Assembly (NCBI RefSeq): GCF_000092425.1
Contig: NC_014221.1
Location: forward strand, 1,121,001 to 1,185,000
From: Truepera radiovictrix DSM 17093
GTDB taxonomy: Bacteria > Deinococcota > Deinococci > Deinococcales > Trueperaceae
DNA: 64,000 nt
Direction of reading: 5' to 3'
The first letter of the stretch is position 1; each line of letters begins with the position of its first letter. A program made the position numbers and the translations under genes. Under the pieces are notes generated by a model. That model made no database searches. It had not been told where the DNA came from and saw only the letters and a list, made by a program, of their open reading frames with translations. This document shows positions 28,589-58,808 of the stretch, in pieces.

Positions 28589-29392
28589 CTAGTGCGAAGG
28601 CCCGTCCCCCCGTGCCTCCGGCGCGCCGGCGCGCGTGTCCGACCAGACGCGGCCGTTACGCAGCTGCACGGTGCGCTGCGCGCGCGCGGCGACCTCGGCG
28701 CTATGCGTCACCGTCACGAGCGTCGCGCCCCTCGCGTGCACCGCCTCCAAAAGCTCTAAGATGCGCGCGCCCGTGTCGCTGTCTAAGTTGCCGGTCGGTT
28801 CGTCGGCCAAGAGGAGCTGGGGGCGGATGACGAGCGCGCGGGCGATGGCCACGCGCTGCTCCTGACCGCCCGAGAGCTCGCTCGGCATGTGCTCGGCGCG
28901 CTCGGCGAGCCCGACGCGCGCTAACATCTCGAGCGCGCGTGCCCGCCGCTCCTTGCGGCTCACGCCCGCGTAGCGCAGCGGCAGCGCCACGTTGCGCCAC
29001 GCCGAGAGGTGCGGCAGCAGGTTAAAGCTCTGAAAGACGAAGCCGACCGTGCGGCCGCGCAGCCGGGAGCGTTCGGCGTCGCTCAAACCGGTCGTATCGC
29101 GGCCCAAGAGCTTGAGGCGCCCCGCGGTGGGCGCGTCCATCAGCCCCATGAGGTAGAGCAGGGTGGACTTGCCCGCCCCCGAGGGGCCGACGAGCGCGAC
29201 GTGCTCGCCGCGCTCGATGCGGAGCGTGACCCCCTGGAGGGCGTCCACCATCCCCTGGCCTTTGGGGTAGCGCTTGGCGACGTCCTGGAGCTCGAGCACG
29301 GGCTCCGGGGGGGTGGGGCTCACGGCGGCGACGTGTGGTGCAGGGTGTGGTGCGGCGTTTAGTGCGGTGTGGGTGTTGCGTGTGATGCGCAT
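28589..29392 (-). CDS. ABC transporter ATPase, MacB/LolD type
   Basis: About 267 residues. Walker A GPSGAGKS (with [13 protein letters not shown]), Q-loop [15 protein letters not shown], signature [15 protein letters not shown], Walker [13 protein letters not shown] and H-loop THSAE are complete, so the enzyme should hydrolyse ATP. It belongs to the subfamily that drives mechanotransmission or export through FtsX-type permeases. Start 29392 has GAGGAG 7 nt upstream; the longer frame would run into the permease gene. It lies 19 nt after the permease stop as last gene of the operon, so the two form one transporter. Confidence 0.92.
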
Positions 29393-29411
29393 CCGGTCTC
29401 CTCGAGGCGGG

Positions 29412-31643
29412 CTAGGCTTCGCGCTCGCGCACCGCATCAGCCGGCAGCAGCCGCGCGGCGGCGAGCGCCGGACCCGCGCCGAAAAGGGCGGCTACGAAGA
29501 ACGCGAGGGCGACGGCGAGAGCGAGGGCGGGGAGGTCGATGAGAAAGGGCACCCCCTGGAGCCGCGCGGCGAGGTAACCCAAACCGACGCCCAAGAGCAA
29601 CCCGGCGGCGCTCGAGAGGGCGGCGAGGCGCAGCGCCTCGCCGAGGAACTGGGCGAAGATGTCGGTGGTGCGGGCGCCGACGGCGCGCCGCACGCCGATC
29701 TCGCGCACCCGTAAGGAGAGTGCGACGAGCATCTGCGCGGCCAGCCCGCCGCCGCCCAGGAGCAGCAAGGCGGCGGCGAGCGCGCGGTAGACCGCTGCGA
29801 GGCTCAACAGGGCGCCCCGCACCTCCGGGTAGAAGTCCTCGGCGCGCATGACCGTAAAGGGGATGCGGTCGTCGCCGTAGCGGGCGTTCAGCACGTCGGC
29901 CCCCGTTTGCAGGGCCGCCGCCACGTCCCGCCCCGGCGCGACCTCGACCAAGATGCTGCCGAACCCCTGCGCGCGCACCATCGGCCCCGGAAAGAGCACC
30001 TGCTCGTCGCGCAGCCCGCCGGGGATATTCTGTGTGCCGCTCCGAAACACGCCGACGACCGTCCAGGCGCGACCGAACGCATGCACCTCGGCACCCAGGG
30101 GGTCGGCCTCGCCGAAGGTCTCAGCGGCGATGAGCTGACCCAGGGCTACCTCGGCGGCGTCCGGTGCGGGCCAGCGCCCCGCCAAGAGTTCCGCGCCGAT
30201 CATCTCGGCGAAGGGTTCCTCGGCGGCTTGCCAGGTCGAGAGGTAGGAGCCCGCCGGACCCTCGAGGGTCGAGAGCGTAAAGGCGCGTTTGTACGCCGTG
30301 CGGGAGAACCCCTCGGCGGCGGGGCTCGCTAGCAGCGCTTCGTAGTCGCGGCGGGTGAGCGAGGTGAAACCGCGTGGGTCGCCCAAGCCCTCGGTCAGGA
30401 CGCTCGCATAGGTGCCGATGCGCTCGCCCACCCCGCCCAGGATGCGACGCGTCTCGGCCTCCGCCGCGCGCGCGGTCGTCGCCTGCACGACGAGCCCCGC
30501 GACCCCCAACGCGAGCCCCGCTCCGGCGAGCAGGAGCCGGCGCTGCGGGGCGCTCGAGGCGCCGCCACGCATCACCTGTGCCGGGGGCTGCCGCGCCGCC
30601 CACAGTGCGGGGAAAAAAGCCGCTACGGCGACCAGCAGCAGCAAAGGCGGCGCGAGCAGCAGGAGCGACCGGAGCCCTGGCGCGGCGCTCACGCCGGTCG
30701 CGCGTGTCAGCAGCGCCGCCCCCAGGTAGGCCAAGGGGGGCGCGAGGACGAGCCCCGCCACGCCCCAGGGGAGCGCCCCCCACAGCTCGCCCAAGGTCAC
30801 GTCCTGCCGGGTCGCGCCGACCGCGCGCCGCACGCCGAGCTGCCGCACGCGCGAAAGGGCACGCGCGAGGTAAAAGGCCAGTAGGTTTGCCCCGGCGCTT
30901 AGCAGCACGGCCGCGACGCCGAAGCCGAGCGCCCCGCCCAGGAGCCGCCCGACCGTTTCGCGCAGCTCGGCGCCGTACTGCTCGGTCAGCGGCAGGACGC
31001 GGTAGCCCTCTATCCCCTCGCGTTCTAGCCACGCCCGCAGCGCCGCGCCCGCGCTCCCGAACGCCTCGGGAGTGGTCTCGAGGAAGAGAAAGCTCGGCCC
31101 CCCCTCCGGGCCGAAGTAGGCTTCGAGTGGCACGAAGATGGCACCGTCTAGTTCCGCGTCCACCCACCCGCGCGCGCGCACGCTCTCCAGCACCCCCACG
31201 ACGCGGTACGGAAAGCCGCCCGCCTCCACGGTCTCCCCCAACATCTCGCGGAGGTTCGCGCCGACGACCGCCTCTGTGGGCGCTTCAAAGGGGCGGCCCG
31301 CCGCGAAGGCGAAGCGGCGCACGCCGAAGAACGCCGCGTCCACCCCGATGAGCGGGTACGAGACCTCCTGCGTTACGAGCCGCGAGACGTTCGTGCTGAG
31401 CGCCACCCCGACCACGCCGGGCAGTGTCGCCAACGCGCTCAGGTCCCCCGGCAGGGGGTCGAGTGGCATAGAGGGCCGCTCCGGGTCTAAGTCCGGCTCC
31501 ACGAGATAGGTGTGTTGGCCCACCGTCTCCCGCAGGGCGCGCAGGGTGTCGCTCGAGCGCTCCCAGAGCCCCAGCGTTACGCCTAGCACCCCCCCGGCGA
31601 GGGCGACCGAGAGGAGCGCGACGAGGTTGCGAAGGGCGTTCAC
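29412..31643 (-). CDS. FtsX/MacB-type ABC permease
   Basis: A 743-residue permease. One N-terminal membrane segment (about 5-25), a MacB-like extracytoplasmic domain (about 45-225), an FtsX block of three segments (about 235-350), a further segment (about 370-390), a second extracytoplasmic domain (to about 600) and a final FtsX block of three segments; this two-repeat layout is that of MacB-related exporters. It begins 6 nt after the preceding gene with GTG and no strong ribosome site, implying translational coupling. Cargo is unknown; the cysteine-rich peptide encoded upstream is the natural candidate (inference). Confidence 0.88.
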   Translation of the reverse strand: MNALRNLVALLSVALAGGVLGVTLGLWERSSDTLRALRETVGQHTYLVEPDLDPERPSMPLDPLPGDLSALATLPGVVGVALSTNVSRLVTQEVSYPLIGVDAAFFGVRRFAFAAGRPFEAPTEAVVGANLREMLGETVEAGGFPYRVVGVLESVRARGWVDAELDGAIFVPLEAYFGPEGGPSFLFLETTPEAFGSAGAALRAWLEREGIEGYRVLPLTEQYGAELRETVGRLLGGALGFGVAAVLLSAGANLLAFYLARALSRVRQLGVRRAVGATRQDVTLGELWGALPWGVAGLVLAPPLAYLGAALLTRATGVSAAPGLRSLLLLAPPLLLLVAVAAFFPALWAARQPPAQVMRGGASSAPQRRLLLAGAGLALGVAGLVVQATTARAAEAETRRILGGVGERIGTYASVLTEGLGDPRGFTSLTRRDYEALLASPAAEGFSRTAYKRAFTLSTLEGPAGSYLSTWQAAEEPFAEMIGAELLAGRWPAPDAAEVALGQLIAAETFGEADPLGAEVHAFGRAWTVVGVFRSGTQNIPGGLRDEQVLFPGPMVRAQGFGSILVEVAPGRDVAAALQTGADVLNARYGDDRIPFTVMRAEDFYPEVRGALLSLAAVYRALAAALLLLGGGGLAAQMLVALSLRVREIGVRRAVGARTTDIFAQFLGEALRLAALSSAAGLLLGVGLGYLAARLQGVPFLIDLPALALAVALAFFVAALFGAGPALAAARLLPADAVREREA

Positions 31644-31649
31644 GCGCGC

Positions 31650-32231
31650 TTACGGCCCCGATACTGCCGCGAGCGCTTGCCGCAGCGAGGCGTCCAGGGT
31701 CTCTTCCGCCGCCACTAAGATGAGCGCCGACTCGACGCGGTTGTCTTCGCCTATCACGGCGGCTTGAAACGATCCCCAGCGCAGCACGTCGCTAAGTTCT
31801 TCTGGCGAATCTTCCGAGAAGAAGGTCCAATCGGGGAAAGCTGCTTGGAGTGCGTCCCGATTTGCGTCATTCATCGCAAACGCCACCCCCTGCACGCCGT
31901 AGCGCTCGAGTAAAGGCGGCAGCGTCTCGAGCAAAAAGCGCGTATTGGAGGCCGGATGGTCGAACTCGGCGTAAGGCACCTCAATGCGGGTCTCTAAGGC
32001 AAACGCCTCGTCCACCACCCAGAGCAGATACCGGCCCACCCCGGGCAGTTCGGCGGGTGTGCCGGCGGCGCTGTAGAAGGTGCCCGCTAGTTCCGTCCCC
32101 GGCGTCATGAGGGGGTTGTTGTCGGGGAGCGCGAAGATTTTCGGCGGGAGGTCCGTCTGGGTCGTGGCGGCCCCGGCGGTGCCCAGGGAGACGAGCAATC
32201 TTAGCGGGCGCGACGTCAAGCTCTCTGTCAC
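31650..32231 (-). CDS. Short paralogue of the adjacent secreted protein
   Basis: About 193 residues from GTG 32231 (AGGGGG upstream), with a short N-terminal hydrophobic stretch that may be a signal peptide. It resembles the neighbour at 32242 at both ends: GVGRYLLWVVDEAFALETR against TTGRYLLWVEDAVFALDTR, and LPPLLERYGVQGVAFAMND...AAFPDW against LPELLERYGVPGVGLVTGD...AAFPDW. The ~150-residue middle of the neighbour is missing, so this is a tandem duplicate that lost the centre. No known family recognised. It lies between its paralogue and the exporter permease, with 10-nt and 6-nt gaps. Confidence 0.75.
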   Translation of the reverse strand: MTESLTSRPLRLLVSLGTAGAATTQTDLPPKIFALPDNNPLMTPGTELAGTFYSAAGTPAELPGVGRYLLWVVDEAFALETRIEVPYAEFDHPASNTRFLLETLPPLLERYGVQGVAFAMNDANRDALQAAFPDWTFFSEDSPEELSDVLRWGSFQAAVIGEDNRVESALILVAAEETLDASLRQALAAVSGP

Positions 32232-32241
32232 GGCGTTCCCC

Positions 32242-33312
32242 CTAGGGAGCGCCCCCGGCACTCTGCAATGCGAGGTTGAGGAGCGCTGGGGGCGGGTCGC
32301 CGGGTTGGGCGGGGGAGAGGAGAAAGGCCGCCTCGACCTCCCCAGATCCATTCACGACGAGCGCTTGCGTCTCTAGAAAGCGCAAAAAAGGCTCAGGTGC
32401 GCCGATGGCGACGAACTGCCAATCGGGAAACGCCGCTTCGAAGGTGGGCAGAACTGCTTCATCCCCGGTCACGAGCCCGACGCCCGGCACGCCGTAACGC
32501 TCTAGGAGCTCGGGCAGCGCTTCCAGCACCGCGCGCTGCTCGGCGGCGATGGCGCGGTCGTTGTCCGTCCCCTCTCCAGAAGCGTCTACGGCGAGGGCGC
32601 TGACGCGCATGAGGAGTGCGGGAGCGCTCACCGGCAGCGCCTCCTCTGGCACCTGCGTCCCGCGCGCCGCCGGTATGGGGGTGAGCGGGGGTTCATCGCC
32701 CGCCAAAAAGGTGCGCGCAGCCTCCGTGACGAGCGGCACGAGCCCCTGCGCCTCCCAGATACCGGGTAGCAGGAAGCGGTAGGCGACCCTCTGCCCTTCC
32801 ATGAGGTAAAGCCCCGACAGGTTGGTGTCCCGCGCGAAGCCGCCCGACGAGACCTGTAAGGGAAGCGCCTGCGCGTCGTCGAACAAGACCTGCGCCACCG
32901 GCAGCCGCGCCGCTACCTCCGCGCGCTCGGCGTCCCCCGGCAGCGCCCCGAGCCGCCCGTAGAGGAGCGCTACGCTCTCCCCCTCGAGCTGAGGCCAGAG
33001 GGTCGTCACGGGGTTAACAAGGGTCGCGGCGGGATCGGCTTGGGGGTTAAGGTCGGCGAGCGGCAGCGCGTCCCGCGTGTCGAGGGCAAAGACTGCGTCC
33101 TCGACCCAGAGGAGATAGCGCCCGGTGGTGGGCAGCGTTTCCTCAGTGTCCTGAGCGTTTGTGAAGCTTATTTCGAGAAAGCTTCCCGGTGTGAGTGCAG
33201 CGTTTTCAAAAGGCACGGCGATAACATTCTGGGCACCTGCCCAACCAGATGCTATAAGTAAACATAGCGTCCAGTGCGTTCTCCGTTTTGCTGAAAGAAA
33301 GAAGTGCAACAC
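32242..33312 (-). CDS. Secreted protein of unknown function, long paralogue
   Basis: A 356-residue protein with a clear signal peptide (about residues 1-27, LCLLIASGWAGAQ). N-terminal module with GRYLLWVEDAVFALDTRD, a middle module (about 100-230) and a C-terminal module with LLERYGVPGVGLVTGD and FEAAFPDWQFVAIG. The GTG start is set by AGGAGG 6 nt upstream. Its only visible relative here is the shorter neighbour. A hairpin terminator separates it from the peptide gene upstream. Function unknown; binding or handling of the exported product is a guess. Confidence 0.75.
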   Translation of the reverse strand: MLHFFLSAKRRTHWTLCLLIASGWAGAQNVIAVPFENAALTPGSFLEISFTNAQDTEETLPTTGRYLLWVEDAVFALDTRDALPLADLNPQADPAATLVNPVTTLWPQLEGESVALLYGRLGALPGDAERAEVAARLPVAQVLFDDAQALPLQVSSGGFARDTNLSGLYLMEGQRVAYRFLLPGIWEAQGLVPLVTEAARTFLAGDEPPLTPIPAARGTQVPEEALPVSAPALLMRVSALAVDASGEGTDNDRAIAAEQRAVLEALPELLERYGVPGVGLVTGDEAVLPTFEAAFPDWQFVAIGAPEPFLRFLETQALVVNGSGEVEAAFLLSPAQPGDPPPALLNLALQSAGGAP

Positions 33313-33354
33313 GGTGGGCCTCCTAAGCTTTCAAGTGTAAGTAAAGAAGTAAGA

Positions 33355-33395
33355 GAAACCAGTTGCAGGCATGCTAGGTTGTGACAACTGGTTTC
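33355..33395 (-). terminator. Hairpin between the peptide gene and the exporter genes
   Basis: On the minus strand, an 11-bp perfect stem GAAACCAGTTG / CAACTGGTTTC (33395-33385 with 33365-33355, 19-nt loop) is followed by a pyrimidine-rich TCTTACTTCTTT. It is positioned to end most transcripts after the peptide gene and let some through. Confidence 0.6.
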
Positions 33396-33406
33396 ATCTA
33401 ATCTGA

Positions 33407-33640
33407 TTACACTACACAGAATGATTGACAAGTTCCGCAGCTTGGAGTTCCCGTCCGAGCGTTACACTGCGAGTCATAGAAGACAGGGGCACTGCAGTTT
33501 CTCGACCGCCCCTGTCCGCAAAACTGGCAGAAGAAGATTCTGCTTGGACCGCAATTCGTGTTTGCGAAAGCGGGCGAGAGTCCGATGAACCCGGATAGGA
33601 TAGCAAAAACCAGAAGAACCTTTTTGCAGACTTTTCTCAC
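33407..33640 (-). CDS. Cysteine-rich secreted peptide
   Basis: A 77-residue precursor with a signal peptide (about residues 1-26, ending SPAFA) and a mature region of ~51 residues holding eight cysteines (30, 38, 41, 49, 59, 68, 71, 75), including CQFC and CGTC, ending FCVV. The even number suggests disulfides. The GTG start has GGGGAGG 7 nt upstream and overlaps by 4 nt the gene for a tandem thioredoxin-fold protein, so the two are made together. GC content is well below that of surrounding genes, suggesting acquisition. No family is recognised; a bacteriocin-like peptide or cofactor-bearing small subunit are possibilities. Confidence 0.75.
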   Translation of the reverse strand: MRKVCKKVLLVFAILSGFIGLSPAFANTNCGPSRIFFCQFCGQGRSRNCSAPVFYDSQCNARTGTPSCGTCQSFCVV

Positions 33641-34395
33641 CTTTTAACCTCCCCTTCTGTTGCCACGAGCGCTTCCGCAACCTCTCGAAAGTCCTCGCGG
33701 TAACCTAGGTCGACCCAGGTAACTAAACCCTCTTTTAAATACACCATTGAGGGAACCCCCGGCAGTTGCCACGCAATCGCTGTATCTCTAGCATGCTCGT
33801 GCTGGCTCGGACACCCTTCAAAAAGAGGCTCTTCACCTCTTGTGACAAGCACCGTGATATTCAAAGCGGTGTCTCGGCAAACTTCAGCTAGAACGTCACG
33901 CCCTCTCAAGCAAGCTTCGCAGCTCTCTCGGTAGAACACCAATAAGCCTGTGTAGTTTGCAAAGACCCCTTCAACGCGCTCTCCTATCGCAATGTTGTAG
34001 GCGTAGTCTAATAGGCGCGTTCCGTTCGCGACGTCTTCAACCATCATCCGCACTTCAGACGTCGCGATGGGTTCGGTGTACCCCTCGGCAATCTGACCAT
34101 CTTTGAGGACAAGAACTGTCGGTGTTGTTTCAACCCTCAAGGTGCGTGCAACTAGCCTGTGAGACGTGTCCTGCAAATAAGGTTCATAGTCGAGTTCGGG
34201 TTCAGAGCCGATGTAGGTTACGGGGAGCCCTTCAAGCTCTTGTCTGAGGACTTCGCACGCCTTGCAGTCGGCGCTAACAAAAGCAAGTACATGTACGCCG
34301 CTCTCGAGCCCCAGACCATAAGGCACCATTTGCGCAAGACCAATGTGGAGTAGCATGAAGCCCATCGTAATGACGTTGAACCGAGCTAAGCGCAT
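33637..34395 (-). CDS. Secreted tandem thioredoxin-fold protein
   Basis: A 252-residue protein with an N-terminal signal or anchor (about 4-22) and two thioredoxin-like domains. Domain 1 has Cys44-Lys-Ala-Cys47 and a cis-proline-type TTP (Pro92); domain 2 has Cys159-Glu-Ala-Cys162 and GVPS (Pro215), plus Cys173 and Cys195. Two complete CxxC sites outside the cytoplasm suggest a disulfide oxidase or isomerase. ATG 34395 is chosen for AAGGAGGGGG 7 nt upstream. The adjoining cysteine-rich peptide is the obvious substrate (inference). Low GC like the peptide gene. First gene of the operon. Confidence 0.82.
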   Translation of the reverse strand: MRLARFNVITMGFMLLHIGLAQMVPYGLGLESGVHVLAFVSADCKACEVLRQELEGLPVTYIGSEPELDYEPYLQDTSHRLVARTLRVETTPTVLVLKDGQIAEGYTEPIATSEVRMMVEDVANGTRLLDYAYNIAIGERVEGVFANYTGLLVFYRESCEACLRGRDVLAEVCRDTALNITVLVTRGEEPLFEGCPSQHEHARDTAIAWQLPGVPSMVYLKEGLVTWVDLGYREDFREVAEALVATEGEVKR

Positions 34396-34514
34396 CGCTA
34401 CCCCCTCCTTCTGCAACCTTGAAAACCATAAAAGCTTGTCTTTCGTTTGCCTAAAAGCTAGCAGTTTTTAACCCGCTGTACAAGTTATCGGTTCACGCCT
34501 TAAGCGTGAACCCT
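34396..34514 (-). promoter_or_regulatory. Promoter region of the peptide/thioredoxin operon
   Basis: On the minus strand TTGTAC, 17 nt, TAGCTT forms a plausible promoter before the thioredoxin gene. Three nt past the regulator's stop lies a perfect 9-bp inverted repeat GGTTCACGC-ttaag-GCGTGAACC (34490-34512). With no T-run behind it, it may be an operator rather than a terminator. Confidence 0.45.
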
Positions 34515-35060
34515 TCACGCCCCTGCCAACATCTCCTGCCAGAGCGAGAGCAAGTCGAAGTAGGCGAGCGCGAGCTGCACGCGGTTCTCTACGCCTACCT
34601 TCTCGCGGACGCTCATGACGAGGTTAGAAACGCGCCCCCCGGAGAGCCCCAGGCGGCGGGCGATAGCCGCGTTCGTGTGGCCCGTGGCGAGAAGCCGGAG
34701 CACGGTGCGTTCGCGTTCGGTGAGGGGGTCGGGGGGGAGCGGCGGCCCTTCATAAAAGGTCTCGCCGCGAGCGACGCGCTGCGCGAGGTCGGCAAAATCC
34801 ACGGGTTCGCGCCCCACGACGGCGAGGCCCTGGGGGCCGAAGCCGAGCAGGTCGTGGAGGTAGAAAGGCGAGCGGTTGGCGGTGACGACGAGGGTCGGGG
34901 CGCTGGAGCGGGCCACTGCGATGAGCTGCGCGAGGGCGTAACCGGGGCGGTCGTCGACGATGAGGGTCAGCGGCCGAGCGGGCGGGCGCGCGGCGAGCAG
35001 CGCCGCGACCCGGGCCCGCGTCGCGCTGGTGTCGGCGTAGATGCGCACGGCCTCCTGCAC
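34515..35060 (-). CDS. LuxR/NarL-type transcriptional regulator
   Basis: A 181-residue protein. The C-terminal part (about 112-170) is a GerE/LuxR helix-turn-helix (LTERERTVLRLLATGHTNAAIARRL ... VSNLVMSVREKV; the recognition helix follows GLSGG). The N-terminal ~105 residues look receiver-like but lack clear phosphorylation-site aspartates in the usual place, so signal input is unclear. GTG 35060 follows TAAACT by 6 nt: probably leaderless. It is directly upstream of the thioredoxin/peptide operon on the same strand and divergent from tilS-tadA; control of the operon is inference. Confidence 0.85.
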   Translation of the reverse strand: MQEAVRIYADTSATRARVAALLAARPPARPLTLIVDDRPGYALAQLIAVARSSAPTLVVTANRSPFYLHDLLGFGPQGLAVVGREPVDFADLAQRVARGETFYEGPPLPPDPLTERERTVLRLLATGHTNAAIARRLGLSGGRVSNLVMSVREKVGVENRVQLALAYFDLLSLWQEMLAGA

Positions 35061-53420: not shown

Positions 53421-55130
53421 ATGAACCGCAGTAACGTTACCCTTCAGCGGCTACGCGAGCTGTACGTGGAGGGTGAAAACGACGTTATTGTGAAGCTCCT
53501 GACGGCCAAGCGAACCCTGACCCCACGGGAGAGCGTCTACCTCGTGTCGGCGTTTATCAATATCGATAACGACGCCGCTGCCATTCGCTATATCAACGAG
53601 GCGCTGCCTCGAGCCGAGGGGGCGGACAAGGCCGACCTGATCGCCTTAAGCGCTCTTATCGCCTCCGTCAGGGGTGACGAAGACGGTTATTTGCGGCTCT
53701 CCAGGGAGGCGGTGGCGGTTCATGCCACGCCGCTCGCGCTGCATCACCTCGGTCTGGCGCTCCCCGATGTGCGCGAAGGCATCCGCATCCTTCAAGGGGC
53801 TCTGCGCGCGGCCGAAGAGGCGGCTGACGCCTATGCAGAGGCGCGTAGCGCCTACGCCCTCGCCCTCTCGTACCTGCGCATCGGCAGCTTTCGAGAATCG
53901 CTCGGCTGGTCGCACTTCGCCTACACGCGCACCGCGCACCCCGTTTTGAGGCTCGTGGTCCTCAACCTGCGCGCTTACACAAAAATTCTCGTCGAGTCTA
54001 CAGAGGGGCTCGAGGCGCTCCTCAAGGGGACGCTCGACGCGACGGAAAAGACCGCCTACGCCTTTCAGCGAAGGCAGACCCTGACGACGCTCGCCGACCT
54101 CTACCAAGCACAAGGGCGTTACAAAGAGGCACTTGCGCTCTACGAAACCGCGCTAGAGCAGGCGCCGCGCCACCTCTGGGCGATGCTCACTTACGGATGC
54201 GTCAAAGCGCTCCGTGCGCTCGGCCGCCAAAGAGAGGCCGAGGAGCTTGCTGAGACAGCCGTCTCGGTGACCCGAAACTTAGCTTTGTACTACCAAGACT
54301 ACGCTATGTTGGTGTTGGGCGTGTCGCGCTGGCCCTCTGAGGCGGGCGTTCGCTTGTTGGATGAGGTGTATCCGAGGTTGAGTGACATCGTGCTCACGTC
54401 CGAGGCGACGTTCTATCTCGCGGCAGCGGAACAGCTGGGCATGAAGCTGCAAAGAAGCTATGTCGCGCTGGCGCGAGAGCTGCGGCGGCCCCTCACCACG
54501 ACGGGGTTGCGGCTCCTCGCGGGAGAGGCCCTGCCTTACCTCGAGCCGCTATTTGTGGAGGAGCATGCGCTGCGCGTGCACGTTTTAGGTACCTTGGAGG
54601 TCTACCAGCGGGGCAACTTCGTGCGGGTGCGGCAGCGCACCGCAGAGCTGCTCGCACTCCTCCTGCAAGAACCGCGGGGCTACACCGCCGAGGCGCTCAG
54701 CGAAGCGCTCTACGGCACCCTGCAGCTCTCGGCGCTGAGAGTCGAGCTGCACCGCCTCCGCAAAGACCTCGGGCTGACGGTTCACACCCAACCCTACCGC
54801 TTGGGGACGCCGTTGTGGGCGGACGTACTCGAGGTCGGCCAAGCCCTTAATGAGGGGCGCGTCAAAGACGCCGTCGCCCTCTACCGCGGTCCGCTGTTGC
54901 CCACTTCGACCTCTCCGGGGATTACCGAGCTGCGCCGCGGGCTCGAGGCCGAACTCCAGGGGGCGGTGCTCGCCGCGGAGGACGTAGAGCTGTTGTGGTC
55001 GCTCGCGCAGATCATGCCCTACGACCTCGAGCTGTGGGAGGCGCTCAGGGAGAGGCTCCCCAAAAACGACCCTCGCCGCAAGGTGGCGGCGGGTAGAAGC
55101 ACGCGCGTTCGGCACGAGCTCGAGCTTTGA
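53421..55130 (+). CDS. TPR-domain transcriptional regulator with SARP-like C terminus
   Basis: A 569-residue protein. Residues ~20-370 form TPR-like helical repeats (clearest at QRRQTLTTLADLYQAQGRYKEALALYETALEQAP). From ~382 a winged helix of the OmpR/SARP type follows (LRVHVLGTLEVYQRGNFVRV, then RQRTAELLALLLQEPRG and LRVELHRLRKDLG), then a BTAD-like helical segment (about 465-530, GRVKDAVALYRGPLLP, ELRRGLEAELQ). SARPs have this DNA-binding plus BTAD pair at the N terminus; here it is C-terminal with a TPR sensor in front. TACAAT 6 nt before ATG: leaderless. It faces a tiny secreted-peptide gene tail to tail, next to a phased operator array. Confidence 0.85.
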   Translation: MNRSNVTLQRLRELYVEGENDVIVKLLTAKRTLTPRESVYLVSAFINIDNDAAAIRYINEALPRAEGADKADLIALSALIASVRGDEDGYLRLSREAVAVHATPLALHHLGLALPDVREGIRILQGALRAAEEAADAYAEARSAYALALSYLRIGSFRESLGWSHFAYTRTAHPVLRLVVLNLRAYTKILVESTEGLEALLKGTLDATEKTAYAFQRRQTLTTLADLYQAQGRYKEALALYETALEQAPRHLWAMLTYGCVKALRALGRQREAEELAETAVSVTRNLALYYQDYAMLVLGVSRWPSEAGVRLLDEVYPRLSDIVLTSEATFYLAAAEQLGMKLQRSYVALARELRRPLTTTGLRLLAGEALPYLEPLFVEEHALRVHVLGTLEVYQRGNFVRVRQRTAELLALLLQEPRGYTAEALSEALYGTLQLSALRVELHRLRKDLGLTVHTQPYRLGTPLWADVLEVGQALNEGRVKDAVALYRGPLLPTSTSPGITELRRGLEAELQGAVLAAEDVELLWSLAQIMPYDLELWEALRERLPKNDPRRKVAAGRSTRVRHELEL

Positions 55131-55131
55131 C

Positions 55132-55266
55132 TCACCTCAGCAGGGCGTCTTGAATAGGGTTTGGGCACGCGACTCTTCCCGAACCTTTGACCGTCCCGTT
55201 GGCCAAGGCGCCAGCACTGCTGACGACGAGAAAGAGCACCACGGCCCACCGTCGCACATTCCGCAT
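55132..55266 (-). CDS. Small secreted peptide precursor
   Basis: A 44-codon gene. The product starts MRNVRRWAVVLFLVVSSAGA and has a classical signal peptide, with likely cleavage after ALA (residue 22), leaving ~22 residues: NGTVKGSGRVACPNPIQDAL then LR, with one cysteine. ATG 55266 has GGGAGG 8 nt upstream, and TACGCT (55294-55289) is a suitable -10 box 16 nt further up, giving a short normal leader. Four GGTAAC-like repeats on 11-bp spacing lie immediately upstream of that box. The stop lies 1 nt from the regulator's stop. No homologue is known to me; a signal or regulator-controlled peptide is inferred. Confidence 0.6.
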   Translation of the reverse strand: MRNVRRWAVVLFLVVSSAGALANGTVKGSGRVACPNPIQDALLR

Positions 55267-55304
55267 CCCCACATCCTCCCTGCTTTGCAGCGTATGAGGA
55301 CCAC

Positions 55305-55379
55305 GTTACCCGCGCGTTACCTCGGCGTTACCTGCGCGTTACTGGTCTGATCCTGCCCCTCGGGTAAGGGGGAGGTAAT
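55305..55379. promoter_or_regulatory. Phased GTTACC operator array
   Basis: GTTACC occurs at 55305, 55316 and 55327 and GTTACT at 55338, exactly 11 bp apart. Opposite-strand copies GGTAAG at 55363 and GGTAAT at 55374 are also 11 bp apart. Read on the minus strand, the last repeat ends 10 nt before the -10 box of the small peptide gene. Direct repeats on 11-bp spacing just ahead of a -10 box are the known layout of SARP-regulated promoters, matching the SARP-like regulator next door. Confidence 0.7.
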
Positions 55380-55586
55380 CGGGGGGCGCTAAGGTGGCGG
55401 TGGCTTGACAAGCCTAGTGGGGGTAAAGAGTAGACTTCTCGGTTCGGCTGCTCTGATTCGACCTCACCGCACAGATCATACTCTCTCAGAGGAGGCTATT
55501 TTGGATTATTTAAATTAAGTAGTTTTTTCGTGCAGCTCTCCTAACCATAGGCGCTTGTGAAATAAGCTGGAAAGAGAGGCGAAGAA

Positions 55587-57236
55587 ATGCGGTTGAAGTG
55601 GGAGTCACTTGCGAGAGCGGTTTTTTGGACTATTGGAGTGCTGGTTCTGAATGCGTGTAGTAGCGGAATTCAACAAGATCCACCTGCCGGCGAACCGGGC
55701 CTTGAACTCTCAACTCAGGCAGCTACTTCTCATAACGTCCCCAACTCGGCAAGCGACGCAGAAGAATGGAACGGCGTGACCTACACTATGAGCCCTGTTT
55801 TGGAACTTGGTTACAAGGACCAGTCAACTGGGCTTGCACAGACGACGGGGGTGCGTTTTAGTGGAGTCAGCATACCGCGAGGGGCCACGATAACCTCTGC
55901 TTACATCGACTTCACAGCCGTAACTAGCCAGTCAGATGCGACCTCGCTGCGGATCCATGGCCAAAATGTCGGTAGCGGCGGACCGTTTGTGGAGGGTGCG
56001 AGTAACGGCGTCACGGGACGCGTGAAGACCTCCAACAGTGTCACCTGGTCACCGGAGCCCTGGACTGGTGGTTTCAAGTACTCTACCCCAAACCTTGCCC
56101 CCATAGTCAGAGAAATCACTAGCCGGTCAGACTGGGTTCAAGGGGCAGCGATGGTCTTCATCATTAAAGGTACGGGGCAGCGCAAAGCTCACGCGTTTGA
56201 TGCTGGCAACAACTTGCAGCCTGTGTTAAGAGTGACTTACCAAACCTCATTGCGCACCTGTTTGCCAAGTAAACCAACTGAAGTGCTGAGCGGAGTGTAC
56301 AATTCTAGCCTCAAACGTACGGGTAATGGCGAGACTGCCTTAAGCATCAATGCGGTCAGTGCTAAAATTGCTCCTGTATTTACAGAGCTTGGCCCTTTAG
56401 CAAGGTTGCGGTACTACAAATCGCTTTGCTTGAGCGGCGGGGTCTATACGCTTAATGAGGCGGCGGATCCTGAAGTCAAAGGAGATGACTCAAGCTGGGA
56501 AAAAGTCTTTCACCGAGGCACTGTGGGCGTGGAGTTCTGGGATTCACCGAGCACCGTGATCGAGCAGGTCGCAATAGAACTGTCTGGTGATGGCATCTCG
56601 CCACGAGGTTACAAAAACCATAACTGGTTGATTCGAGACTCTTACATTAGACACGCGGGCGATGATGGTGTTGAGAACGATTGGATGACGTCCGGAACCA
56701 TCGACGGCGTACTTATTGATTGGGCCTATACAGGCATTTCCTGTAGAGCTGGTGAGAGCCAAAGGAACGACTTGTCCAGTATCACCCCCGGTACGATAAC
56801 GATCAAAAATAGCCTCATCCGCCTTAGGAAACAGAAGTGGGGTTACAATAACGCAACTAATTTGCACAATCATTTGTTCAAGTGGGAACAGGATCAACCG
56901 GATAAAGGCTACGTCGCCAAGAAGGGGTGTAAGTTAAGGCTCATAAACAACGTGTTTATGGTCGACCAGAATGCGGGTTATTTGGATCCAGCTCAAAATC
57001 CCAAAGTCAACTATGGGCAGGTGCTCGTCGAAAGTAGCAACAACATCCTGATTTGGAGTGGACCAGAAAGCGCTTTGCCGAATAGTTATAAACAAGCCAA
57101 TCTACCGTCGGGTTTTACGCTCAAAATGGGATCTGAAGGCGCAAGCATTTGGAACACGCGTCGTAACCAGTGGTTTGATTACTACAAGCAGTTCGGCCTC
57201 TTCCAGAATTACAGAACGTTTCAAAAGCTCTATTAG
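55587..57236 (+). CDS. Secreted lipoprotein with beta-rich N domain and right-handed beta-helix-like C domain
   Basis: A 549-residue protein with a lipobox (VLNACSS, Cys24), so anchored after export. Residues ~50-230 resemble the DNRLRE-like beta domains of surface proteins (IPRGATITSAYIDFTA, IKGTGQRKAHAFDAG, LQPVLRVTYQ). The second half (about 290-500) has repetitive strands (WLIRDSYIRHAGDDGVENDW, GVLIDWAYTGISC) as in pectate-lyase-like beta helices; carbohydrate binding or cleavage is a guess. GC is clearly lower than the genome, as is its upstream region from about 55440, suggesting transfer. GAAAGAGAGG precedes ATG. Confidence 0.7.
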   Translation: MRLKWESLARAVFWTIGVLVLNACSSGIQQDPPAGEPGLELSTQAATSHNVPNSASDAEEWNGVTYTMSPVLELGYKDQSTGLAQTTGVRFSGVSIPRGATITSAYIDFTAVTSQSDATSLRIHGQNVGSGGPFVEGASNGVTGRVKTSNSVTWSPEPWTGGFKYSTPNLAPIVREITSRSDWVQGAAMVFIIKGTGQRKAHAFDAGNNLQPVLRVTYQTSLRTCLPSKPTEVLSGVYNSSLKRTGNGETALSINAVSAKIAPVFTELGPLARLRYYKSLCLSGGVYTLNEAADPEVKGDDSSWEKVFHRGTVGVEFWDSPSTVIEQVAIELSGDGISPRGYKNHNWLIRDSYIRHAGDDGVENDWMTSGTIDGVLIDWAYTGISCRAGESQRNDLSSITPGTITIKNSLIRLRKQKWGYNNATNLHNHLFKWEQDQPDKGYVAKKGCKLRLINNVFMVDQNAGYLDPAQNPKVNYGQVLVESSNNILIWSGPESALPNSYKQANLPSGFTLKMGSEGASIWNTRRNQWFDYYKQFGLFQNYRTFQKLY

Positions 57237-57250
57237 TGACCACACAAGAA

Positions 57251-57286
57251 GACCCCCCTGGCAGGTTTATGCTGCCAGGGGTCTTT
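57251..57286 (+). terminator. Terminator of the lipoprotein gene
   Basis: Strong stem GACCCC..CTGGCAG / CTGCCAGGGGTC (57251-57264 with 57272-57283, two extra C in the 5' arm), then TTT. The 57287-57491 stretch behind it shows no gene and is still AT-rich. Confidence 0.85.
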
Positions 57287-57491
57287 GAGTTTAGCAGATA
57301 GCGCAAGTGCTTTTGCTTAAAGAGTACATTCCTACATGCGCAACAATCTGCTTCGAGCGTACCGGACTGCTGAAATATTGTGCGGTTGTCTTTACCTCAA
57401 CTCTCACGCGGTGTGATCGACCGCGGCTGCTCACAGAGAAGACGCTTTGTGTCTCTTTCACCCTGAGTAGGTAGTAACAATATGACAGAAT

Positions 57492-58808
57492 TTACGCCCC
57501 CACCACTACCGGCTCGAGCACCGTCCGCAGGGCCGCCTCGAGCTTGTCGAGACCCTCCGAAAGCTCCGCGTCCGTCATGCGAATGGGCGGCAGAAGCCGG
57601 ATGACGTTGCCGTAGGTGCCGGTCGTCAGGAGCAGCAGGCCGTCGTTGCGAGCGTGCTCCAAAACCGCTTGAGCTGCCTCGGGGAAGGGGGTCTTCTGGT
57701 CGTCTTTGACGAACTCGATGCCGACCATTGCGCCAAGGCCGCGCACGTCGCCGATGGCGCTGAGTTCAGCCTGCAGGGTGCGAAGCCGCGCCATCGCCCT
57801 CTCGCCGATCTCCCGGGCGCGCTCCAAGAGCCCCTCTTCCTCGATGACCTCCAAGGTCGCCAAGGCCGCCGCGCAGCTCACCGGGTTGCCGCCGAAGGTG
57901 CTGCCAATCTGCCCTGGCGAGAGCTGGTCCATCACCTCGGCTTTGCCGATCACAGCCGAGAGCGGAAAGCCCGACGAGAGCGCCTTGGCCGAGGTGATGA
58001 GGTCGGGCTCGAGCCCGTAGTGGTCGACCGCCCACCAGGCGCCCGTGCGGCCGATACCCGCTTGCACCTCGTCGTCGATCCAGAGCGCGCCGATCTCGCG
58101 GGCGTACGCGGCAACACCTTTTAAGAACGCGCCAGGGGCGGGGATAAAGCCCCCCTCACCGGCGACGGGCTCGAGGATAAAGGCGGCGACTTCGCTCTCG
58201 CCGACAGTGGTTTTGACCTGATCTTTGAGCGCGGCTAGAGCCCGCTCGGCGAGCTCCTCCTCGTTTCGAGCGCCCCAGGGGTTGCGGTAGAGGTAGGGGT
58301 ACTGGGCGCGGTAGATCTCGGCGGCGCGGGGGGCGAACCCCATCTTGTAGGGGTTCCATTTGGCGGTCAGCGAGAGCGCCATGTGGGTGCGGCCGTGAAA
58401 GGCGTGGGTAAAGGCGACGATGGCGGGGCGCTTGGTCGCGGCGCGCGCGATCTTGATCGCGTTCTCGACCGCTTCGGCGCCCGAGTTGACCAGAAAGGTC
58501 CGCTTCGGCGCGCTTCCCGGAGCGAGCGCGTTGAGCTTTTCGGCGAGACGGACGTAGGTCTCGTTCATGCCGACGGCGAAGCAGAGGTGTTGAAAGGTCT
58601 CGGCTTGTTTCTTGACGGCCTCGATGACCTTGGGGTGGGAGTGGCCGACGTTCATCACGGCGATGCCGACCGTCCAGTCGAGGTACTTGTGGCCGTCTTC
58701 GTCCCACACGTAAGCGCCCTCGGCGCGGGCGGGGTAGATAGGGTGGGTGGAGTACGCCGCGCGCGGTACGGCGTGCCGGCGGCGCTCGGCTAGGCTTTGG
58801 TTGCTCAT
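57492..58808 (-). CDS. Class III aminotransferase (4-aminobutyrate type)
   Basis: A 438-residue PLP enzyme: VWDEDGHKYLDWTVGIAVMNVGH, NSGAEAVENAIKIAR, HAFHGRTHMALSLTAK, IDDEVQAGIGRTG and the PLP-lysine region TSAKALSSGFPLSAVIG. Closest in pattern to GABA or related omega-aminotransferases; ornithine or lysine-type substrates cannot be excluded. ATG 58808 has TGGAGG 5 nt upstream. Confidence 0.9.
   Translation of the reverse strand: MSNQSLAERRRHAVPRAAYSTHPIYPARAEGAYVWDEDGHKYLDWTVGIAVMNVGHSHPKVIEAVKKQAETFQHLCFAVGMNETYVRLAEKLNALAPGSAPKRTFLVNSGAEAVENAIKIARAATKRPAIVAFTHAFHGRTHMALSLTAKWNPYKMGFAPRAAEIYRAQYPYLYRNPWGARNEEELAERALAALKDQVKTTVGESEVAAFILEPVAGEGGFIPAPGAFLKGVAAYAREIGALWIDDEVQAGIGRTGAWWAVDHYGLEPDLITSAKALSSGFPLSAVIGKAEVMDQLSPGQIGSTFGGNPVSCAAALATLEVIEEEGLLERAREIGERAMARLRTLQAELSAIGDVRGLGAMVGIEFVKDDQKTPFPEAAQAVLEHARNDGLLLLTTGTYGNVIRLLPPIRMTDAELSEGLDKLEAALRTVLEPVVVGA

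Follow-up and report, generated by a model that had tools for sequence, protein, structure and literature searches.

Among the described systems closest to the locus presented here, the enterotoxin STII passes through Sec into the periplasm, gains its disulfides there and exits by MacAB-TolC (PMC5985334, PMC8277102). Glycocins such as sublancin and pallidocin are disulfide-bonded bacteriocins accompanied by thioredoxin-like oxidoreductases and an ABC exporter. In Bacillus subtilis, the secreted, disulfide-bonded peptide SDP is associated with the MacB-like transporter YknWXYZ, and the FetABCDEF system of Campylobacter jejuni encodes thioredoxins together with an ABC permease and ATPase (PMC10783030). 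Our literature search found no described equivalent of the locus below, and no disulfide-rich peptide system described in Deinococcota.

The locus lies in a 64,000-nucleotide stretch (the window) of the genome of Truepera radiovictrix DSM 17093, a single 3,260,398-bp contig from a member of the radiation-resistant Deinococcus–Thermus phylum, and comprises the following features.

34515..35060, minus strand: regulator with LuxR/GerE HTH (Pfam GerE, 8e-14)
34487..34511, no strand: inverted repeat GGTTCACGCTTAAGGCGTGAACC between the regulator and Trx genes; operator or attenuator candidate
33637..34395, minus strand: tandem thioredoxin-fold protein (Trx, P0001) with N-terminal signal, putative disulfide maturase of the peptide
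33407..33640, minus strand: Cys-rich peptide precursor, 77 aa (P0002)
33313..33406, minus strand: intergenic hairpin 3' of the peptide gene, stem AAACCAGUUG/CAACUGGUUU
32242..33312, minus strand: long secreted protein with thioredoxin-fold domains (P0003)
31650..32231, minus strand: short paralogue (P0004)
29412..31643, minus strand: duplicated MacB/FtsX-type permease (Pfam MacB_PCD, FtsX)
28589..29392, minus strand: MacB/LolD-type ATPase subunit (NCBIfam models)

A preliminary description had delimited a six-gene operon from Trx to ATPase. These six minus-strand genes are indeed found at the coordinates given there, separated by -4, 94, 10, 6 and 19 nt, with the peptide gene overlapping the Trx stop by 4 nt, and the domains claimed for Trx (two of thioredoxin type), permease (MacB_PCD and FtsX) and ABC ATPase hold. 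The upstream limit does not: the unit has seven genes, because the regulator recurs in other cassettes and lies inside the interval defined by an empty site. In a genome of the same genus (G001), only 48 bp separate deoB from tilS and the cassette is missing; the two genes are likewise adjacent without a cassette in G005, G006, G008 and G015. In the host, the two genes are separated by 28589-35060, an interval that contains exactly the six genes and the regulator. The seven-gene locus is a conserved, mobile cassette, and such a clean empty site suggests that all seven genes probably came or went together.

The cassette resembles the STII route in its small Cys-rich peptide with a Sec signal and in the proposed periplasmic disulfide formation and MacB-type, ATP-driven ejection. 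With a signal peptide, a periplasmic thioredoxin and a MacB-type pump in the cassette, and TolC-family proteins and DsbB encoded elsewhere in the host genome, counterparts are recognised for all STII elements except MacA, the seven cassette genes including no MacA/HlyD-type adaptor gene; the likeness proposed here concerns the route. Whereas the parts used by STII are scattered housekeeping genes, here they are gathered in one mobile cassette that includes the putative maturase, Cys-less thioredoxin-fold proteins as its putative partners, a duplicated permease and a regulator. Unlike glycocins, the cassette combines a Sec-type signal with a MacB-type permease and lacks a double-glycine leader; Pfam and NCBIfam reveal neither an S/O-glycosyltransferase nor a C39-type exporter among the seven genes, which places it outside that class.

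On balance, we consider it probable that the cassette is a self-contained system for the production and export of a disulfide-rich secreted peptide, via Sec, Trx-dependent maturation and MacB-type ejection. In the proposed mechanism, the LuxR-type regulator would control the operon, possibly by way of the inverted repeat upstream of Trx. Both Trx and the peptide precursor have signals, judged by hydropathy, that would take them across the inner membrane by Sec. In the periplasm, the CxxC of the second Trx domain would form or isomerise the four disulfides of the peptide. The Cys-less proteins, predicted to adopt thioredoxin folds, could bind the peptide, with chaperone, adaptor or immunity partner as candidate roles. 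Lastly, permease and ATPase would drive the folded peptide out of the periplasm by mechanotransmission, probably via a TolC-type duct.

The proposed maturase carries one CxxC motif per thioredoxin-type domain, CKAC (Cys 44/47) and CEAC (Cys 159/162). Its Pfam matches are Thioredoxin_2 (2e-7) and TraF (6e-5), and its profile matches solved thioredoxins, best of all FetE (8t4c, 9e-7). The second CxxC is present in all relatives, and the first is absent in G042 and G064. Judged by fold and CxxC at the sequence and profile level, P0001 is a thioredoxin-fold disulfide oxidoreductase. Its role as the disulfide maturase of the peptide, already suggested in the preliminary description, is supported as likely. 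The DsbB of the host is a possible source of oxidant; VKOR was rejected as electron acceptor.

The peptide precursor begins with a hydrophobic signal, again judged by hydropathy, which ends near SPAFA and is followed by about 51 aa with 8 Cys. In a search directly downstream of 516 locus genes for short ORFs that encode a hydrophobic N-terminus with at least six Cys after it, only five genes gave one and all five encode a cassette Trx, so that the set is not due to chance. The number of Cys in the mature peptides is even in 9/9 cases (6, 8 or 10). A Cys signature common to the window peptide and to the peptides of five relatives is absent from the other ORFs shorter than 140 aa (7093 scanned), a consistency and not a proof, since the pattern was drawn from these same six peptides. 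For one pair of peptides (G042_2/G064_C), dN is 0.39 and dS 2.7, similar to the permease, giving a dN/dS of about 0.15; this dS is near saturation. Together, the shared signature, the even Cys counts and this one dN/dS value indicate that the peptide frame is conserved. Neither the peptide nor the paralogues P0003 and P0004 match a Pfam or NCBIfam family, in keeping with the earlier statement that the set resembles no familiar family; for P0002, this covers the curated bacteriocin and RiPP precursor models, and a halocin-C8-like hint, below cut-off, is confined to the G069 peptide.

The same architecture is found in independent loci: the window, a second host cassette (L081), G042, G064, G050 and G069, with degraded or partial versions in G067, G068 and G010. 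Recurrence was established with a two-sequence Trx profile among 111 Deinococcota genomes, where the co-occurrence of tandem Trx and Cys-rich peptide outside the host proves to be real; plasmid sequences were searched as well, and GTDB contigs by a single pattern scan. Besides the host, six of the 111 genomes (G042, G064, G067, G068, G069 and G010) encode a tandem Trx, as a cassette or its remnants. In intact loci, the product of the gene after Trx is a Cys-rich peptide with a signal peptide, and most loci continue with the MacB/FtsX permease and the ATPase. The order in G042 is Cys-rich peptide 1, secreted protein, Trx, peptide 2, secreted protein, permease, ATPase and regulator; in G064, which has two cassette copies in tandem, one of them truncated, it is Trx, peptide, secreted proteins, permease, ATPase and further peptides; and in G069 it is regulator, Trx, 10-Cys peptide, FtsX permease and ATPase. 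G067 keeps regulator and Trx, and its peptide gene is cut by a transposase (L023:9211-10978, a transposase-type insertion with the Cys-rich tail after it). G068 has regulator and Trx, with both the Trx and the peptide gene frameshifted. In G010, the secreted protein, permease and ATPase survive beside a Trx fragment of 47 aa, and no peptide is seen at this locus.

The second host cassette was found by searching with the regulator family. It (L081:5942-11187, about 816.9-822.2 kb on the host contig) consists of a regulator, a tandem thioredoxin-fold protein with a CSPC motif, an 8-Cys secreted peptide that looks unrelated to the window peptide, a hairpin, a MacB permease and an ATPase, and the G050 locus (L121) has the same gene order. 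With a limit of 0.01, BLASTP does not match the Trx protein of either locus to that of the window, which shows that the architecture is kept while the sequences diverge. Other searches returned less: genome contigs searched with P0001 yielded no related locus, and plasmids searched with P0003 and with the Trx of a relative (P0008) yielded no matches. A five-row Trx alignment being too divergent for pattern building, a three-row alignment was used; among GTDB contigs, the resulting pattern retrieved only the G064 contig (Thermaceae bacterium isolate 354-166) as a cassette match, along with single-domain thioredoxin-like proteins in unrelated bacteria (Massilia and others).

The duplicated secreted proteins noted in the preliminary description are refined by models to predicted TlpA/ResA-like thioredoxin folds without catalytic Cys. 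The AF2 model of P0003 has a mean pLDDT of 51, with residues 212-356 better; compared with the PDB, these residues match TlpA/ResA/DsbE (Z 11.8, rmsd 2.7, 122 aligned). Modelled alone (pLDDT 49), the N-terminal half gives thioredoxin-fold matches with Z 8.4, which is suggestive of a second thioredoxin-fold domain. P0003 contains a single Cys, residue 17, in the signal region, and P0004 contains none; as the mature part of neither has a Cys, both fall outside the CxxC oxidoreductases. No match emerged when the profiles of the P0003 and Trx families were compared, so that the models are the basis for the shared fold. P0004 matches P0003 residues 29-91 and 256-337, joining the start of the first domain to the end of the second, and is probably an internal-deletion form of the long protein. 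P0004 also gave a DUF3798 hit at E 0.1, which we do not accept as a relationship.

The permease matches MacB_PCD (6e-25) and FtsX (2.5e-20) in two stretches each, and by hydropathy it divides into two halves, both made up of four TM segments and a large loop in the periplasm. By Pfam and NCBIfam, permease and ATPase together form a MacB/FtsX (type VII) ABC transporter. Like the ADOP duplicated permeases (TIGR03434, 2e-25), the permease carries two MacB/FtsX halves per chain, but it scores 89 bits against a cut-off of 622 and is linked here to a peptide and Trx. The ATPase matches the NCBIfam MacB, DarD and LolD models with E below 1e-67, none at cut-off, and is 40-55% identical to its relatives in other cassettes. 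The permease subfamily (E<=1e-25) has five copies in four of the 111 genomes, each in a cassette, and this confinement supports a permease/ATPase pair dedicated to the locus.

What the pair does is the point on which the best-surviving alternative differs. MacB-like transporters can serve sensing or immunity instead of export, and resistance to the disulfide-bonded SDP is a well-documented case (PMC5985334). Permease and ATPase, alone or together with the Cys-less proteins, could act in this manner, as do BceAB and YknWXYZ, with the peptide leaving by another route; the duplicated permease and the lack of a MacA gene in the cassette are in line with it. A further host locus (L080:5873-10510, about 871.9-876.5 kb on the contig) is a counterpoint to export, as it contains regulator, Trx-like protein (CDTC), MacB permease and ATPase with no peptide gene visible. 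However, these are diderm genomes with TolC-family proteins, and a periplasmic peptide would still need an exit; the cassette encodes no other exporter. Moreover, MacB_PCD is present in each permease half, and the central helical insertion of BceAB is not seen. SDP and the cassette share a secreted disulfide-bonded peptide and a MacB-like transporter, but the SDP transporter protects its producer, is encoded apart and has no cassette thioredoxin. We therefore regard an immunity or sensing function of the pair as rather unlikely.

Under the preferred production-and-export reading, the peptide is probably a weapon or signal of a previously undescribed type. Precursor features and linkage predict a product that is probably bacteriocin-like, and the cassette as a whole suggests that it most likely acts on competing bacteria. 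Alternatively, the same maturation and export steps could deliver a pheromone with a regulatory target in kin, as might be suspected from the dedicated regulator, a member of an expanded family with six copies in the host genome. We judge this distinctly improbable: peptide sequences diverge greatly between loci, copies decay (the G067 insertion, G068 frameshifts and G010 truncation), and the cassette contains no receptor kinase.

The regulator has its LuxR/GerE HTH behind an N-terminal domain without Pfam match, and homologues adjoin the cassettes of G042, G067, G068, G069 and G050 and the second host cassette. Classified by eye, about 18/38 loci of the family are near peptide-type loci, cassettes included; in the remainder, the regulator lies beside housekeeping genes or is fused to GGDEF. 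Three loci (L119, L122 and L123) place it beside a C39-peptidase ABC exporter, an HlyD-type protein and several GG-leader precursors, and a relative adjoins a C39 exporter in L091. In L086:4537-7071 and L087:6501-9345, from other Deinococcota, it neighbours a radical SAM enzyme and an unknown gene, likely a different peptide-modifying system. At L089:7077-7475, small membrane proteins and a secreted Cys-rich peptide containing a long glycine linker come after the regulator, with no Trx. As it adjoins C39 exporters, GG-leader precursors and radical SAM enzymes, the family is linked to peptide production independently of Cys-rich peptides.

A redox or metal module on the lines of FetABCDEF, in which the Cys-rich protein would bind metal or buffer redox, is very unlikely. 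In its favour, FetBCD (ABC permeases and ATPase) is known to be combined with the thioredoxins FetE and FetF (PMC10783030), no solved structure matches the Trx profile better than FetE, and structure comparison gives the Cys-less domains the same fold as Sco-like proteins. Against it, Fet is iron-linked, has single-domain thioredoxins and no Cys-rich peptide, its FetM, FetP and FetA (DUF2318/YHS) are absent from the cassette and from the relatives' loci as listed, which puts these outside the FetMP-FetABCDEF class, and the regulator family adjoins classical bacteriocin loci.

If production and export of the peptide is right, regulator and tandem Trx provide a handle for mining disulfide-rich peptides, and the cassette offers a compact model for the handling of folded periplasmic peptides by MacB-type transporters, as well as a case of thioredoxin folds reused without catalysis beside a catalytic one. 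More tentatively, the cassettes could represent a class of systems, spread across Deinococcota, for disulfide-rich peptides exported by Sec. Such a class would have a tandem Trx as dedicated maturase, catalytically dead thioredoxin folds recruited as peptide-specific chaperone, immunity protein or MacA substitute for a duplicated MacB-type exporter, and a shared family of atypical LuxR-type regulators that marks peptide loci throughout the phylum.

Two elements may contribute to regulation. The core of the inverted repeat at 34487-34511 (CTCAC...GTGAG) occurs once in the 3.26 Mb genome, its stem has a z of -3.6, and a similar repeat is found at the regulator/Trx junction in G067, G068 and G069 (L023, L024 and L025), making four cassettes with the window; we propose it as a candidate operator or attenuator. 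A consensus scan found no sigma-70 promoter before Trx. The hairpin at 33313..33406 (fold z -2.3) has counterparts in L081 (z -9.8; 19-bp), L121 (z -5.3) and L025 (z -2.5), again downstream of the peptide gene; fold analysis found none after this gene in L013 or L022. It is a possible transcript stabiliser or attenuator, and its presence in 4/6 loci is consistent with differential expression of the structural gene.

Base composition agrees with the low-GC 5' genes and native-looking exporter described previously, with a GC of 0.53 for Trx and 0.51 for the peptide vs 0.73 for the permease and 0.72 for the ATPase. The assembly from different sources deduced from these values does not stand, as the gradient from low-GC peptide and Trx to higher-GC permease recurs in most relatives and the empty site points to a cassette acquired or lost whole. 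Wherever comparison is possible in other loci, peptide GC is below that of permease and ATPase; the gradient is thus a family trait and not a recent patchwork in the host. Elsewhere in the window, positions 55001-58000 also have a low GC (0.50-0.57), unlike the remainder.
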